In this document: one piece after another, positions 2,958-30,314 of the stretch
Numbering within the stretch: the stretch's first letter is position 1
Layout: each line of letters begins with the position of its first letter
Virus record (IMG/VR): IMGVR_UViG_3300036846_000870
Location: 1-33,267 of that record
Source: a virus
Direction: 5' to 3' (one strand)
DNA: 33,267 nucleotides
Notes under the pieces: generated by a model
What the model saw: only the letters and a program-made list of their open reading frames with translations
Told to the model about the DNA's origin: nothing
Database searches by the model: none
Program-made: the position numbers and the translations under genes

Positions 2958-3170
2958 ATGAAAACGGAAGATATCGCCAAAGCGCTCGATGAGATGTTTG
3001 CTTTCCATATGCCCCATCGATGGAAGCAAGTTGGCCGTTGTGTCTATTGCGATGATTGCGGAGTCCGGCTCTATCAAGGGACGTTGCCCGCGGATCGGAG
3101 AGAGCCTCGACGTCAACCGCCGGAGCCCAAAGCCACTACGGAGATGCGGGCTCGATGGGGTAAGACCTAA
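2958..3170 (+). CDS. Small zinc-ribbon-like protein
   Basis: A 70-residue protein of unknown function. The central CVYCDDCGVRLYQG segment carries a CxxCxxC cluster that may bind zinc. The C-terminus is basic and proline-rich. The start at 2958 follows a GGGAGG Shine-Dalgarno at 2949-2954, 9 bases after the large terminase stop. Its stop TAA overlaps the next ATG by one base, so the small genes between terminase and portal look co-translated. No function can be named. A structural or nucleic-acid-binding accessory role is only a guess. Confidence 0.7.
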   Translation: MKTEDIAKALDEMFAFHMPHRWKQVGRCVYCDDCGVRLYQGTLPADRREPRRQPPEPKATTEMRARWGKT

Positions 3171-3403
3171 TGCCGGATGAGCGTCCCCCTATCTGTCCTC
3201 AATGCGGGTATCGCTGGCTGGAAGGGGTACCGGATGGGGTCCGTTTTTGGTGGCATATGAAGTGCTTGAATGTACGGATACGCAAGCTCAGGGAGAGCCA
3301 TGAGAGTAACAGTCATCAAGGCATATCTGATATTGGTAGCGGCAATGGCGACCCTCGCCCTGGCGCTAGTGGTCTTACTCGGCAAGCCAGCCAAGCCATA
3401 TGA
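3170..3403 (+). CDS. Small CxxC zinc-ribbon protein
   Basis: A 77-residue protein beginning MPDERPPICPQCGYRW, followed by an FWWHMKCLN segment. The CPQC and the later Cys may make a small zinc ribbon, a type common in actinophage genomes near terminase. The ATG overlaps the upstream TAA (TAATG). The N-terminal 44 residues look like a real protein. The remaining 33 residues are low-complexity (Ser/Gly/Pro/Gln) and lie over the next gene, which starts at 3300 in another frame. The natural stop may therefore have been lost, leaving a readthrough tail. Function unknown. Confidence 0.6.
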   Translation: MPDERPPICPQCGYRWLEGVPDGVRFWWHMKCLNVRIRKLRESHESNSHQGISDIGSGNGDPRPGASGLTRQASQAI

Positions 3404-3470
3404 CCTCCTGGCGTGGGCGGTCATCTCGACCGCGGTGGCATCAATCATTCTCATCTTTCCCGAGAGGTAG
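3300..3470 (+). CDS. Small two-helix membrane protein
   Basis: A 56-residue protein with two hydrophobic segments: AYLILVAAMATLALALVVLLG (about residues 8-28) and LLAWAVISTAVASIILIF (about 37-54), joined by a short polar turn GKPAKPYD. The ATG at 3300 has GGGAGAG at 3291-3297 as Shine-Dalgarno. It overlaps the upstream zinc-ribbon gene by 104 bases in a different frame and ends 5 bases before the portal start. The fold is holin-like, but the position between terminase and portal is not the lysis cassette. It could be an auxiliary holin or a superinfection-exclusion protein. Unresolved. Confidence 0.55.
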   Translation: MRVTVIKAYLILVAAMATLALALVVLLGKPAKPYDLLAWAVISTAVASIILIFPER

Positions 3471-3475
3471 GGACA

Positions 3476-4849
3476 ATGGCTGACTTGACCTTTGACGAAT
3501 GGCGGCAGATTGGCGCGGGCAAGCTCGATGCCCAAACCTCCCGAGCCGCCTACTATCAAAACTATTACGATTGCGAGAACGTAGTTACCGCTTTGATGGA
3601 CTCGGAAGAGCGGACCAACTTCCGGACCTTTCTCAAGGAATCCCGAGCTAACTGGAGTGAGCTTGTCGTCAATGCTGTAGCGGAGCGCTTGCAAGTTGTC
3701 GGCTTTCGCTTCGGTCCCGGCAATGCCTCCGGCTCTCACGCGTGGGAGATATGGCAGGCATCGGGGCTCGACGCGGATGGGGAGCTTGCCCAAACGGATG
3801 CTCTGGTTTGCGCGTCATCCTTTGTCCTGGTCAATCTGGATGAGGACAACCTGACCGGAGTGACCATTAGCGTCGAGTCTCCCTTTGAGGCTTGCGTCCT
3901 CTATCAACCCGGTAACCGGCGGAAGAGGGTTGCCGGATATAAGCGTTACTCCCTTGGGAGCAAGACAACTCAAGTCCTCATCCTTCCCGACGTCATCGCG
4001 ACCTGGTACCCCGATGAGCCTGAGCCGGAAGTCCTCGCCAATCCGACCGGTATCGTCAACCTGGTCGAGATGCAACCTCAGCCCCGAAGCACTCGACCAC
4101 CGCGCTCCGAGCTACATAGCGCGGTTCACTTCCAGGACCGGATAAACACAACCATATTCAATCGGTTGGTCGCGACCGATTACGGAGCCTTCCGGCAGAT
4201 ATGGGCAACGGGGGTCAAGCTAGCGCGCGAGATACTGACCTTCGATGACGGGACAACCAAGGTCAATGTCGTCAAGCCTTTTGACGTCGGAGCCAACCGG
4301 CTCTTGACTAATGAGAATCCCGATGCCCGCTTTGGTTCCTTTACGGAGTCAACCCTCAGGGGCTACCTCGATGCCGTCAGCCAGGACGTCGAGCAACTCG
4401 CGGCCATTACCCAAACCCCTCCGCATTATCTACTTGGCTCAATGGTCAATCTCTCGGCTGACGCCATCAAGGCGGCTGAGGCTGGCTTGGTATCCAAGGT
4501 CAGCCGTCGAGCCCTTCATATCGGGGAGGCTTGGGAAGAGGTCATGAGGATTGCTCTGGCTCTGACCGGCGACCCAAACGCCGGGGACGTAGCGGCTGAG
4601 GTTGTCTGGAAGGACTTTGAGACGCGCTCTGAGGCTCAGCTTGTCGATGCCCTGACCAAGATGGCAACCCTTGGGGTACCGACCGAAGTCCTCTGGCAAA
4701 AGTGGGGAGCGACCCCTCAGGAAATAGAGCAATGGAAGCAACTAAAGGCAAATGAGGGGGCTCAGACGGCTCTCAACCAAGCCGTAGCGCTTGGAGCGAG
4801 TGACCCTTATGCCGCTTTGATGGCTGGCGGTAGTGGCGCTACCGGATGA
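3476..4849 (+). CDS. Portal protein (SPP1 gp6-like)
   Basis: It forms the dodecameric ring at the capsid vertex through which DNA enters and leaves. The protein has 457 residues. Family features include the N-terminal AAYYQNYYDCENVV segment, the WSELVVNAVAERLQVVGF segment, the central PRSELHSAVHFQDRINTTIFNR helix region, and TPPHYLLGSMVNLSADAIKAAEAGL, typical of actinophage portals. I chose ATG 3476 (MADLTFDEW) over the upstream in-frame start at 3413 because GAGAGGTAGG at 3462-3472 is a suitable Shine-Dalgarno and the longer form would overlap the membrane protein gene. The 3' end overlaps the MuF gene by 17 bases. Confidence 0.92.
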   Translation: MADLTFDEWRQIGAGKLDAQTSRAAYYQNYYDCENVVTALMDSEERTNFRTFLKESRANWSELVVNAVAERLQVVGFRFGPGNASGSHAWEIWQASGLDADGELAQTDALVCASSFVLVNLDEDNLTGVTISVESPFEACVLYQPGNRRKRVAGYKRYSLGSKTTQVLILPDVIATWYPDEPEPEVLANPTGIVNLVEMQPQPRSTRPPRSELHSAVHFQDRINTTIFNRLVATDYGAFRQIWATGVKLAREILTFDDGTTKVNVVKPFDVGANRLLTNENPDARFGSFTESTLRGYLDAVSQDVEQLAAITQTPPHYLLGSMVNLSADAIKAAEAGLVSKVSRRALHIGEAWEEVMRIALALTGDPNAGDVAAEVVWKDFETRSEAQLVDALTKMATLGVPTEVLWQKWGATPQEIEQWKQLKANEGAQTALNQAVALGASDPYAALMAGGSGATG

Positions 4850-6224
4850 CATAACTACCCTCTATCGAGGGAGGCTCTCGATGGGGAGCGCGCGCCTATT
4901 GGCACGCGTGCAAGCCCTTTGGTCAACCATGTTCAATCCCCTCGACCCCAATGCCTCTTTGGCTCCATTTGGAGCCATTTTCGGAAGATGGGTAACCCAA
5001 GCCCAAGCCGGAGCCGCGGCGGAGGCTACTCGCTACCTCCAGGGCTATCTATCGGCATCGACGGGGGTACCAATGGCTTACGTCGAGCCGTTTGGCGTCC
5101 CTGCCGGATTGGTTGGCCGGGTCACAAACGGCATGACGACAATGGGCTATACCGCTCAAGCTCCGGCGGTTTACTGGAATCGCAAGAGTCAGGGTTACTC
5201 CGATGACCTGGCGGCAGCATCAACCCTCGCTTGGGCTAATCGGACGGCAAGCTCTGAGCCCTACCGCGTCGCTAATGCCACAACCAACGGCAATGCTCTT
5301 CATGATGACCGCTTTACCGGTCGAGTCCGGCGGATAACCAGGGCGGATGCTTGCCCGTTTTGCGTCATGATCGCGGACCGGGGCTATATCCCATCTCATG
5401 CGGGCTTTGAGGCTCATGCTCATTGCCGTTGCACCCCTGAGCCGCAAATATCGAGCTATGCCACGTCAAAGTCAGCAATCGCCCGAGGTCGAGCCGCTAC
5501 CGACCAGGACGCTCGACGGCAAGCCGCTATTGCCCGGAGGGAAGCCGAATATCAAAGGGTTTGGGCTCGCGAGGGGGGCATCGACGGCATACCGCTCAGG
5601 GGATATGACGATTACGTCATGCAAACGTTTAAGGGTCGGGAGCAAACCCTCAACGCGCTCCGGATGAGTCTGGACGGCATCCGCCCGGAGATAATCGACC
5701 GGCTTGGGTCCATCAACGTAACGGCAGACCCGTATTTTCAGACAAGCGATGCCCTAGCTTACTACCAAAACAATGGACGGTATATCAGTATCCGACCGAG
5801 CGAGTACCGACCGGGCTCGACCAAGGCAATGCAAGACACAATCGATCATAAATGGTGGACTCCGGACGGCAAGACAACGGGAGCGGAGAGGACGCTTACC
5901 CATGAGTTAGGCCACTTCCTCGACTACCAACTCGACCCGGCTCAGCAAGCGGAGCTACGGGGGAAGTTATCCGATGATTGGGGCATCGAGAATATGACTG
6001 ACGCCAAATCGATTATCAGCGAGTATGGCGGCAAGTCCGACCGGGAGGCTATCGCTGAGCTTTGGGCGGAATACAAGACCTCGACAAATCCAAGGGGACC
6101 GGCAAAGTTCGCCGGCCAATATATCGAGGACAAACTCGGACCCAACCCGACCCCGACCCCGACCCTGGAGGAACAAAAGCGGGCTCGATATCAAAAGATG
6201 GGATGGTTACCCAAGGCGGCATGA
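4833..6224 (+). CDS. MuF-type minor head protein fused to a zincin-like metalloprotease domain
   Basis: A 463-residue two-part protein. Residues about 1-215 form a MuF-like head morphogenesis domain, with the characteristic metal-binding signature ADACPFC (Cys174, Cys177) and HAHCRC (195-200). It would sit inside the capsid near the portal. After an arginine-rich linker, residues about 280-445 carry THELGHFLDY with a canonical HExxH (His357, Glu358, His361), and about 45 residues later EAIAELWAEY, whose Glu409 or Glu413 could be the third zinc ligand. This layout resembles gluzincin-like effector domains attached to MuF proteins. The start is GTG at 4833, overlapping the portal stop. A Pro-Thr repeat precedes the C-terminus. 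Activity and target are inference. Confidence 0.85.
   Translation: MALPDDITTLYRGRLSMGSARLLARVQALWSTMFNPLDPNASLAPFGAIFGRWVTQAQAGAAAEATRYLQGYLSASTGVPMAYVEPFGVPAGLVGRVTNGMTTMGYTAQAPAVYWNRKSQGYSDDLAAASTLAWANRTASSEPYRVANATTNGNALHDDRFTGRVRRITRADACPFCVMIADRGYIPSHAGFEAHAHCRCTPEPQISSYATSKSAIARGRAATDQDARRQAAIARREAEYQRVWAREGGIDGIPLRGYDDYVMQTFKGREQTLNALRMSLDGIRPEIIDRLGSINVTADPYFQTSDALAYYQNNGRYISIRPSEYRPGSTKAMQDTIDHKWWTPDGKTTGAERTLTHELGHFLDYQLDPAQQAELRGKLSDDWGIENMTDAKSIISEYGGKSDREAIAELWAEYKTSTNPRGPAKFAGQYIEDKLGPNPTPTPTLEEQKRARYQKMGWLPKAA
4961..4976. repeat. Palindrome copy 1 (GGCTCCATTTGGAGCC), inside the minor head gene
   Basis: A perfect copy near the start of the MuF gene, encoding part of LAPFGAIF. 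The use of the Pro codon CCA, which looks uncommon in this window, makes codon choice alone a less likely explanation. Confidence 0.75.
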
Positions 6225-27431: not shown

Positions 27432-27998
27432 ATGTCTATTTACGATGACCCCAAGATGCAAATACCGGATGACTACTCCGATGACGTCAAGCTTGAGAAT
27501 CGCGGCGATAGGGTGCAAGCCCGCGTTATCCGCTATGAGCCACTCAATACGCGGTACGGGACCGCGGCCAAGTATTACCTCTTCGACGTCGAGCGAGGCA
27601 TAGAGCGGACCATGATTACCGGTCCGACCGGGGCTAAAGACCTCTGGCGGCAGCTATTGAAAGAGCGACCGGAACCAGGGGACGTCATCTTTATCGAGCT
27701 ACTCGATATCGCTTCCGGCGGCTTCAAGAGCTTCGACGTCCGGGTATTGGAGCGCGGAGCCGGTCAGCCACCCCCGAGAGCCCCTCAGTCAGCCGGTAGG
27801 GGTCCGAGCCCGATGGCAAACGGTCCTCAGGCTCAGCCGCCATATCCTCCCCCTCAGAGCCCCGTAGCGGCTCCCCCTCAACCGGCTCCGGCTTCCTATC
27901 CTCAAGCCCCTCCGGCTCCGGCCAGAGCCCCTCAACCGGCTCCGGTCCCGGCGGTTCCGGCTTACGGGGAGGATGAGGATGACCTCTTTGACCGGTAA
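27432..27998 (+). CDS. Single-strand DNA-binding-like protein (OB fold) with Pro-rich tail
   Basis: A 188-residue protein. Residues about 15-108 look like an OB fold (RVQARVIRYEPLNTRYGTAA, then YYLFDVERGIERTMITGP and GDVIFIELLDIASGGFKSFD). Residues about 112-175 are a Pro/Ala/Gln-rich linker and the end is the acidic GEDEDDLFDR, similar in plan to the SSB C-terminal tip that recruits partners. It lies directly before the primase, overlapping by one base. AGGAGG precedes the ATG. Its role is presumably protecting ssDNA during phage replication. Identity as SSB is based on architecture, not on exact motifs. Confidence 0.7.
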   Translation: MSIYDDPKMQIPDDYSDDVKLENRGDRVQARVIRYEPLNTRYGTAAKYYLFDVERGIERTMITGPTGAKDLWRQLLKERPEPGDVIFIELLDIASGGFKSFDVRVLERGAGQPPPRAPQSAGRGPSPMANGPQAQPPYPPPQSPVAAPPQPAPASYPQAPPAPARAPQPAPVPAVPAYGEDEDDLFDR

Positions 27999-28579
27999 TG
28001 CAAGAGCCCGACGTCAATCGAGCTATCGACTTCCTCTCGACCCTCTTCGCTTATGCCGAAGTCGGCTACCTCAGCCTCTTTTCCATCGAGGCTCAGAGCC
28101 GCAAACGTCGGACGGCTTGGGCTCCGGTCGGGGATATCCCTGCCCTGGCTCCGGCTATTTGGGAGCTTGGGCTCAAGGGGGACGTTTGGTTTGGTTGCGC
28201 GACGCGTCGAGAGGTATTGCCGGAGGGACGTCGGGGCGGCATCGAGGATTGCCTTGCCATCCCCGGCCTATGGCTCGACGTCGATATAGCTGGACCCGGC
28301 CATCGATTGAGCGGATTGGCGACCTCCTACGATCAAGCCCGGTTATTCATCAAGGGGTACCCCGAGCGGGCTACGGCAATAGTCCGCTCCGGTTACGGCT
28401 TCCAAGCCTGGTACCTCTTCGATGAGATGGTCGAGGTCGAGGATGCCTTGCCGATACTGGCTCAATGGCGGCTTAGCTGGCTCAGTCGAGCCATTACGGC
28501 AGGCATTCATATCGATGACGTTTGGGATATGCCGCGCATCCTCCGGCTCCCCGGTACCCACAACTTCAAGGGGGATTGA
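27998..28579 (+). CDS. Archaeo-eukaryotic-type primase domain protein (primase/polymerase)
   Basis: A 193-residue AEP-fold protein. Catalytic-type motifs are LWLDVD (Asp94, Asp96), IVRSGYGFQAWYLF (129-141; the sGyG.q.yw segment) and DMPRILRLPGTHNFKG (177-192). It should synthesise primers for replication. Its frame continues without shift into the helicase gene, with only TGA at 28577-28579 between Asp193 and the next ATG. Related actinophage proteins often have primase and helicase in one chain. AAGGGGG before the TGA can serve reinitiation. Confidence 0.8.
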   Translation: MQEPDVNRAIDFLSTLFAYAEVGYLSLFSIEAQSRKRRTAWAPVGDIPALAPAIWELGLKGDVWFGCATRREVLPEGRRGGIEDCLAIPGLWLDVDIAGPGHRLSGLATSYDQARLFIKGYPERATAIVRSGYGFQAWYLFDEMVEVEDALPILAQWRLSWLSRAITAGIHIDDVWDMPRILRLPGTHNFKGD

Positions 28580-30121
28580 ATGCCGGTCCTGGTAACGGCT
28601 AAATGGGATGCCGACCGGAGGTATCCGGTATCGACCTTGCTCGATGCTCTTGGTCCGATCCCCGAGCCGGTCAACTTCAACGGCAGTAAAAAAGTCAGAC
28701 GGGATAACTCTCATTTGGCCGGCAGTAGATTCAATGAGTCAGCGGACTTCGGAGCCATACTGTCCGGCTTGGCACATTGCCAACTAGTACGCCGCGCCGG
28801 GATCGAAGAGCATTACCACTACCCTAATAGCGAGAATGACGTCAGCGTTACTCGCTACCTGGAGGATGACCACGTTGCCGTTTGGTCCGAGACAATGGCG
28901 CGGGAGCTTGGCTTAGAGCTTCGACGTCCGTATGACAAGTTTGGCTTTTGGGGGATAGTCAAGCATGGCGGGGATTATGCCGCGGCCAGGGCGGAGCTAA
29001 TCGAGGACGGCATAACGGACCGGCTCTATAAGCCAAGCGGTCCGAGCCCGAGGGACGTCCTCAGGGAGCCGCCGGTCATCCCCGAGTCAATAACCCTTAT
29101 CCGGATGGAAGGAGTCGAGAGAGTGTCGGTTAAATGGCTCTGGCCGGGATGGGCTCCGCTTCGCAAGCTCATAACCCTCGACGGCGATCCCGGTACCGGC
29201 AAATCAACCATGATGGATGACATAGCGGCAAGAGTCTCGACCGGTGAGCCGATGCCCGGTCAAGAGGCTCCGAGCCTGCCTCCCTCCGCGGTATTGCTAT
29301 TGAGCGGAGAGGATGACCCCGACGATACGATCAAACCCCGGCTCATGGCCGCGGGGGCGGATGAGAGCAAGATTTACTTTGTCCAGGATGCCCGCTATGA
29401 CGGGGAGGCTTTGCCTATTGTCATCCCGCGGGACGTCCCTTTGCTGGCAAATGCCATCCGGACTACCGGCGCTCGATTGATTGTCATTGACGTTCTCAGC
29501 GAGTACCTCGATGCCAAGGTGGACAACTATCGGGACTCCGATATCCGGAGGACGCTTCACGTCTTGCGCGGTATTGCCAATGAGACTAACTCGACAATCA
29601 TCATGCTCCGGCATCTCCGCAAAGAGGGAGGCAAAGCCATTTACCGGGGCGGGGGCTCGATAGGGATTGTGGGAGCCGCCAGGGCGGGATGGACGGTAGC
29701 TCAGCATCCGGAAGAGGAAAGCCTCCGAGTCCTGGCCGCGGTCAAGATGAACCTTGCCATTACCCCTCAACCAATCGGCTTCAAGCTCATCCCGGTCGAG
29801 GGGCTCGACGTCCCGCGGGTCGATTGGCGCGGACCGATTGAAGGGATGACGGCAGAGTTGCTCTTGAGTGACCGGCCATCCGGTGACCCCGATGAGGTCG
29901 CGGATAAGAGGTCGAAGCTGAGCCAATGCATCGACGCCATAAAGGAAGTCTTGAAGGGAGGACCGCTTTGGAGCAATGAGCTTCATGAGGCAATCGTCAA
30001 GGGAGGTATCGCATCGAATAGCACGTTTGATCGAGCCCGAGCCAAGCTCGATATCAAGACAACCAGGGAGCGGATGCCCAACGGGGATATGGGCTGGCGT
30101 GTCGCGTTGGGTCCGGATTAA
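28580..30121 (+). CDS. RepA-like AAA replicative helicase
   Basis: A 513-residue protein with, first, a region (about 1-165) that looks like the continuation of a primase-helicase linker (VTAKWDADRRYPVSTLLDAL), then a RecA/AAA_25-type ATPase: Walker A GDPGTGKST (202-210), LLSGEDDPDD (240-249), Walker B LIVIDVLSEYL (300-310) with Asp304, and IIMLRHLRKEGG. The C-terminal part (about 430-513) resembles a winged helix (ELHEAIVKGGIASNSTFDRA). It would unwind DNA at the phage origin. The ATG directly follows the primase TGA in the same frame. An AT-rich iteron region follows its stop. Confidence 0.88.
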   Translation: MPVLVTAKWDADRRYPVSTLLDALGPIPEPVNFNGSKKVRRDNSHLAGSRFNESADFGAILSGLAHCQLVRRAGIEEHYHYPNSENDVSVTRYLEDDHVAVWSETMARELGLELRRPYDKFGFWGIVKHGGDYAAARAELIEDGITDRLYKPSGPSPRDVLREPPVIPESITLIRMEGVERVSVKWLWPGWAPLRKLITLDGDPGTGKSTMMDDIAARVSTGEPMPGQEAPSLPPSAVLLLSGEDDPDDTIKPRLMAAGADESKIYFVQDARYDGEALPIVIPRDVPLLANAIRTTGARLIVIDVLSEYLDAKVDNYRDSDIRRTLHVLRGIANETNSTIIMLRHLRKEGGKAIYRGGGSIGIVGAARAGWTVAQHPEEESLRVLAAVKMNLAITPQPIGFKLIPVEGLDVPRVDWRGPIEGMTAELLLSDRPSGDPDEVADKRSKLSQCIDAIKEVLKGGPLWSNELHEAIVKGGIASNSTFDRARAKLDIKTTRERMPNGDMGWRVALGPD

Positions 30122-30263
30122 GGACTTACAACCTCAAGGACTTCAACCTCAGGAAGTATGGAAAAACAGGGGTTCTTGGAGTCCTTGAGGCAGAGGTAAG
30201 GACTTCAACCTCATCAACTTTTCCATACTTCCAACCCTTGAGGTTATTGAGGTTCTAGAGGTT
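30122..30263. other. Putative replication origin: iterons and a 14-bp inverted repeat
   Basis: It is AT-richer than its surroundings. GGACTTCAACCTCA at 30138-30151 and 30200-30213, with variant GGACTTACAACCTCA at 30122-30136, form iteron-like direct repeats. GGAAGTATGGAAAA at 30152-30165 and TTTTCCATACTTCC at 30219-30232 form a perfect 14-bp inverted repeat. Three inverted TGAGGTT/AGAGGTT words repeat every nine bases at 30239, 30248 and 30257. It lies directly after the helicase, where an origin of the RepA type would be expected. Origin function is inference. Confidence 0.6.
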
Positions 30264-30314
30264 AAACCGCAGGTCAAAGGCAGTTTTCAAGAATATCAAA
30301 CTAGGAGGATGGCA

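Follow-up and report, generated by a model that had tools for sequence, protein, structure and literature searches.

The window analysed here, by which we mean the whole stretch of DNA at its full length of 33,267 bases, is one metagenomic virus record that belongs to a tailed phage, judging by its PHROG matches, and that carries an integrase of the serine-recombinase type. Searches of the window for tRNA genes and Rfam families found no match. Within it, a primase ORF and a helicase ORF follow each other on the same strand and in one reading frame, with the TGA of the first directly next to the ATG of the second (Table 1). An earlier note on this DNA had described the two ORFs, their coordinates, their common frame and the abutment of TGA and ATG, and the locus is exactly as it was described there.

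Table 1. Features of the primase-helicase locus, in positions of the window
Feature	Position	Strand	Details
Upstream gene	27432..27998	+	188 aa; stop overlaps primase start as TAATG
Primase ORF	27998..28579	+	193 aa, ATG...TGA
Shine-Dalgarno-like AAGGGGGA	28568..28575	+	within last primase codons; -9.7 kcal/mol with anti-SD
Stop-start junction TGA|ATG	28577..28582	+	gap 0, in frame; TGA at 28577-28579, ATG at 28580
Helicase ORF	28580..30121	+	513 aa, ATG...TAA
Codons for predicted last strand and helix of primase fold	28595..28651	+	inside helicase ORF

How much does the shared frame itself tell us? In a tiling of the window, 11 of the 43 neighbouring ORF pairs are in frame, about the level expected by chance, although this rate is rough because the tiling was chosen by hand from mechanical ORFs. 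We regard the common frame of the primase and helicase ORFs as incidental, one of several outcomes; what does exceed chance is the split itself, which is known from homology and not from the frame.

The primase ORF matches phage DNA polymerase/primase families (phrog_2478, 5.5e-14). When the TGA is read as a residue, the phrog_2478 score rises from 52.2 to 57.4 bits and the match extends past the stop, which gave the first hint that these families continue across the TGA. The ORF contains D94xD96, SGYGFQ (131-136), D173, R180, R183 and PGTxNxK (185-191), so that all recognised catalytic motifs lie inside its 193 residues; D94, D96, D173, R180, R183, N189 and K191 are invariant in 16 sequences. 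At the position that we take to be motif II of the archaeo-eukaryotic primases (AEPs), where the histidine of sxH is presumably usual, the window (28388-28405) and its close kin have Q136, in SGYGFQ, and L022-L024 have H. By its modelled fold, its DxD, its third acid and its motif residues, we assign the protein to the AEP superfamily (PrimPol/RepB'-like), with primer synthesis as its predicted activity. The domain model further identifies the 193-aa ORF as the catalytic part of such a primase, short of the strand and helix with which the fold ends.

The helicase ORF matches Pfam AAA_25 (PF13481, E 3.2e-30) and primase/helicase families, and has the Walker A sequence GDPGTGKST. RSF1010 RepA (1g8y) matches it weakly in sequence (E 0.0063) and also in fold, the latter through a model of low confidence. 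By these sequence and model matches, we classify the ORF as a RecA-type replicative helicase (RepA/AAA_25) whose N-terminus carries the end of the primase fold; a hexameric form and unwinding activity are predicted.

The reality of the split is established by relatives in which the two ORFs are one. Six IMG/VR relatives (L005, L015, L016, L017, L018 and L030) are unbroken and colinear across the junction, over their full length, at 39-43% identity. The 700-aa protein of L005 aligns from end to end at 41% identity; opposite LPGTHNFKGD-stop-MPVLVTAKW of the window, it reads LPGTLNWKLDRGVPVTYRASW. The junction is likewise open in phage proteins that are more distant (L006-L008 and L011-L013, the last three from mycobacteriophages). 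Because the two window ORFs correspond to one continuous primase-helicase in relatives, the split is real. This was the check proposed by the earlier note, namely whether homologues of the joined translation are continuous, and the refuting case that it had named, two ordinary genes without fused kin, is ruled out by the six full-length proteins. Its description of the fused kin as actinophage-type was less apt, in that the best full-length relatives are IMG/VR contigs and the mycobacteriophage proteins are more distant. A scan of host genome contigs found no relatives, and a search of plasmids gave partial matches only. In two further sequences, L019 and L020, the primase part resembles that of the window (34-36% in the best segment) and the helicase half is a more distant type of ATPase (FGESGSGKS and YGESGSGKS); such mixed halves, as read from sequence, point to domain exchange.

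Other relatives are split. The closest, L002, was the sole relative returned by two viral scans and comes from a contig and a sample other than those of the window; it is 84% identical in the primase and 90% in the helicase, and its primase (3001-3585) and helicase (3582-5126) overlap as ATGA, which places the halves in different frames. In L029 (59% identity), the primase ends in VTARWKGHR and the helicase starts with MPYQWSELL, with a TAATG overlap, and L035 (40%) is split as in L029, but with a TGATG overlap. The breakpoints of these two lie 12-13 residues later than that of the window, and their 1-nt overlaps put the halves out of frame. The stop-start distance is thus 0 nt in the window, -4 in L002 and -1 in both L029 and L035. 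The halves of L045 (helicase 43% identical) are separated by two small ORFs, one of 37 aa (3246-3359) and one of 50 aa (3356-3508); its primase TGA runs straight into the start codon of the first of them (TGAATG), an abutment like that in the window. When the window is compared with L002, the primase has a dN/dS of 0.24 (dS 0.48) and the helicase one of 0.12 (dS 0.56); at a dS of about 0.5, such ratios indicate that the split is older than the divergence of these two phages and that neither half is decaying.

The surroundings of the pair are in part conserved as well. The upstream gene, for which no match was found in PHROG and whose product has a proline-rich C-terminal tail, precedes the primase also in L002 and L029, and a similar gene is present in L005. 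Directly 3' of the helicase gene is a repeat-rich gap of lower GC content (30122-30308 in the window, 5127-5323 in L002 and 5657-5793 in L029), with long imperfect inverted repeats (60-nt arms that are 70% complementary in the window, 61-nt arms at 77% in L002) and repeated AACCTCA/TGAGGTT. An excess of 9-nt inverted repeats 3' of the helicase is also seen in L035, L018 and L045, with differing sequences. By its repeats, the gap is a candidate replication origin. Downstream of it, the C-terminal part of the ORF at 30309-31466 matches DNA methyltransferase families (phrog_67, 1.2e-06), and its N-terminal part is unmatched.

Where in the protein does the break fall? A disordered inter-domain linker was first hinted at by the full-length model, which is poor (pLDDT 63.5 overall, residues 184-199 below 50), and was dropped on the better model of the domain. 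When AlphaFold was given the primase region across the stop, with 16 sequences, as a single chain rather than two and with the TGA as W, the model reached a pLDDT of 89.6 and a pTM of 0.86. Beyond the stop, which is joint residue 194, it places with confidence a strand (200-203) and a helix (211-218). VIA-align superimposes residues 2-219 of this model on the AEP domain of the cyanophage S-2L PrimPol (6zp9, chain 6-190; Z 19.3) and residues 4-218 on RepB' (3h20; Z 13.9), and PriS structures match at a Z of about 11. An S-2L construct of residues 1-190, which stops at the equivalent point, is active as a polymerase domain (PMC8065100). Because the solved AEP domains align through 218-219, the stop at joint residue 194 cuts inside the catalytic fold, so that the whole catalytic domain is not contained in one polypeptide. 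The domain model thus moves the break from the primase-helicase linker, where the earlier note had put it, into the primase fold, and the last strand and helix of that fold would be encoded at the start of the helicase gene.

Is this segment retained where the gene is split? An HMM of the post-break primase segment, built from the six fused relatives, scored 19.8 bits against the N-terminus of the window helicase, 15.3 in L002, 16.7 in L029 (joined), 10.1 in L035 and 1.6 in L045; the controls reached at most 14.9 bits (1000 shuffles) and 10.7 bits (401 control windows). The match is therefore good in the window, L002 and L029, weak in L035 and absent in L045, which means that not every split member clearly keeps the segment. 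Its retention in the group of the window suggests that the two proteins may complete the fold together.

These results bear on whether the halves still depend on each other. We considered that fission might have left them independent, the truncated primase folding alone and the N-terminal segment of the helicase being a relic, and this is a serious possibility, although one that we place appreciably below even. The location of every recognised catalytic motif in the primase ORF would fit such independence, as would the helicase N-termini of L035 and L045, which have lost much or all of their resemblance to the segment. However, the segment is kept in the window and L002, with a dN/dS over the first 40 helicase codons of 0.28 between the two (a noisy value), and the solved catalytic domains all reach into it. 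With a cut inside the primase fold, the halves would probably need to reunite in order to function, and we infer that they do so as a non-covalent primase-helicase. A more specific proposal is that the N-terminus of the helicase completes the fold in trans, strand-and-helix complementation replacing the covalent tether of the fused ancestor, and that the breakpoint arose or shifted more than once, which would have produced natural split primases that differ in their cut sites. We hold this proposal tentatively, its chance being somewhat short of even.

Did the genes part, or did they join? Trees were built for the primase, for the helicase and for both joined. In them, the window, L002 and L029 form a group (support 98/99 for the joined proteins with an outgroup, 89/87 for the primase and 96/93 for the helicase), and L035 and L045 fall elsewhere, weakly supported. 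These trees, whose inner branches are weak, call for two or three changes, and they are compatible with a single clade of split genes (AU p 0.26-0.38). Such interleaving of split and fused genes, together with the weak inner branches and the unrejected single clade, leaves some room for an ancestral state of separate genes from which the fused relatives arose by fusion. We nevertheless consider it unlikely. First, distant relatives of the same layout (L006, L008 and the mycobacteriophage proteins L011-L013) are fused. Second, the breakpoints lie within what is one contiguous domain in the solved structures of AEPs, an arrangement that is hard to obtain without breaking a joined gene. Third, the breakpoints differ between lineages. 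Fission is therefore the reading that we favour: the outgroups are fused, and a cut inside the domain presupposes a joined gene.

The junction also suggests how the helicase is translated. AAGGGGG, at 28568-28574, lies five bases 5' of the helicase ATG, and the energy of AAGGGGGA passes the cut-off of -9.5 kcal/mol that marks the top 5% of random positions in the window, a comparison that covers one window and hand-picked starts. The counterpart in L002, CAAGGGGA, is weaker (-7.1), the Shine-Dalgarno sequences of L029 and L035 are weak, and none was found at the primase start of the window. A stop-start distance of -8 to +6 nt is indicative of termination-reinitiation, and genes arranged in this way encode subunits of the same complex more often than expected (Huber et al. 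2023, PMC10666635); the junctions of the window, L002, L029 and L035 (-4 to 0 nt) all fall within that range. The primase and helicase would thus probably be coupled in translation, via termination-reinitiation. Of the three options raised by the earlier note, reinitiation aided by AAGGGGG is the best, given this strong Shine-Dalgarno sequence five bases before the ATG.

Another of its options was UGA readthrough, which, like a recoded UGA, would yield a short primase and a fused primase-helicase, and to which the common frame of the window halves, the lone TGA between them and the existence of fused homologues lend some appeal. However, readthrough calls for a downstream frame in register with the stop in relatives; the halves are in other frames in L002, L029 and L035, where it would give no fusion, and L045 has two ORFs in between. 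Moreover, TGA is an ordinary stop in the window, ending 22 of the 44 ORFs of the hand-picked tiling, as the earlier note had said in arguing for an unchanged code, and a strong Shine-Dalgarno sequence and an ATG stand exactly at the junction. We therefore regard readthrough as very improbable. The remaining option, a recent nonsense mutation (or else a sequencing error) in an otherwise fused gene, might be suspected where one codon separates the halves in a single metagenomic record, but it is hardly credible, since L002, the nearest relative, has its split at this very site but in other letters, ATGA in another frame, and both halves are under purifying selection.

An old gene fission is the probable explanation of the locus, with presumably coupled translation of two proteins, a fold cut before its last strand and helix, and halves that may bind by completing that fold. 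The ancestor would have been one polypeptide with an AEP primase and a RecA-type helicase, the usual form in this phage family. Ribosomes would now end the primase at the TGA and re-initiate, or start afresh, at the abutting ATG, aided by AAGGGGGA, and the N-terminus of the helicase would keep the strand and helix with which the primase fold ends. By completing the fold, the two proteins might bind each other, and the primase would remain tied to the helicase.

Several known systems resemble the window pair in part. The fused phage AEP primase-helicases (L005, L015-L018 and L030) have the same domain order and colinear sequence, and in L005 a similar upstream gene, but they are single polypeptides with no stop where the primase ends; mycobacteriophage Pixie gp69 and its kin, annotated as DNA primase/helicase, are more distant fused counterparts. 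Gene 4 of phage T7 likewise specifies a primase-helicase, and a helicase-only product is also made from it, but from an internal start in one open gene, with a TOPRIM primase and no interdomain stop. The RSF1010 proteins RepB' and RepA (3h20; 1g8y/1nlf) are, as here, an AEP primase and a RecA-type hexameric helicase on separate polypeptides; RepB', however, has its whole catalytic domain in one chain, whereas that of the window is divided over two genes. The S-2L PrimPol, the best fold match to the primase region (over 178 residues, at 12% identity), is, like the window pair, an AEP enzyme of a phage that has a helicase-like domain at its C-terminal end (PMC8065100), but it is one polypeptide with a PriCT-2 domain, and its C-terminal domain resembles hexameric helicases of the papillomavirus type, not the RepA/RecA type. 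In the CCPol-MP/Cch2 module of SCCmec (PMC7581432), primase function likewise comes from separate, tightly bound operon proteins beside a helicase; CCPol is, however, an A-family polymerase unrelated to AEPs, and MP is not a fragment of CCPol.

In the literature covered, no paper on gene fission of a phage primase or helicase turned up, nor any split AEP primase-helicase among the papers listed, an absence that in itself proves little. What distinguishes this AEP primase-helicase is that it is cut inside the fold of the primase, at a site that varies across the family. The case also shows that readthrough should not be assumed wherever two domains are separated by a stop in frame, and that one close out-of-frame relative decides the matter. 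If our reading is right, these phages provide a natural series that comprises fused genes, genes cut ahead of the final strand, genes cut between that strand and the helix, and halves set apart by two small ORFs. The series would allow one to ask how a replication enzyme made in one piece turns into an enzyme of two subunits, and the family would also allow one to ask whether overlapping gene pairs hold the halves together by coupled translation.
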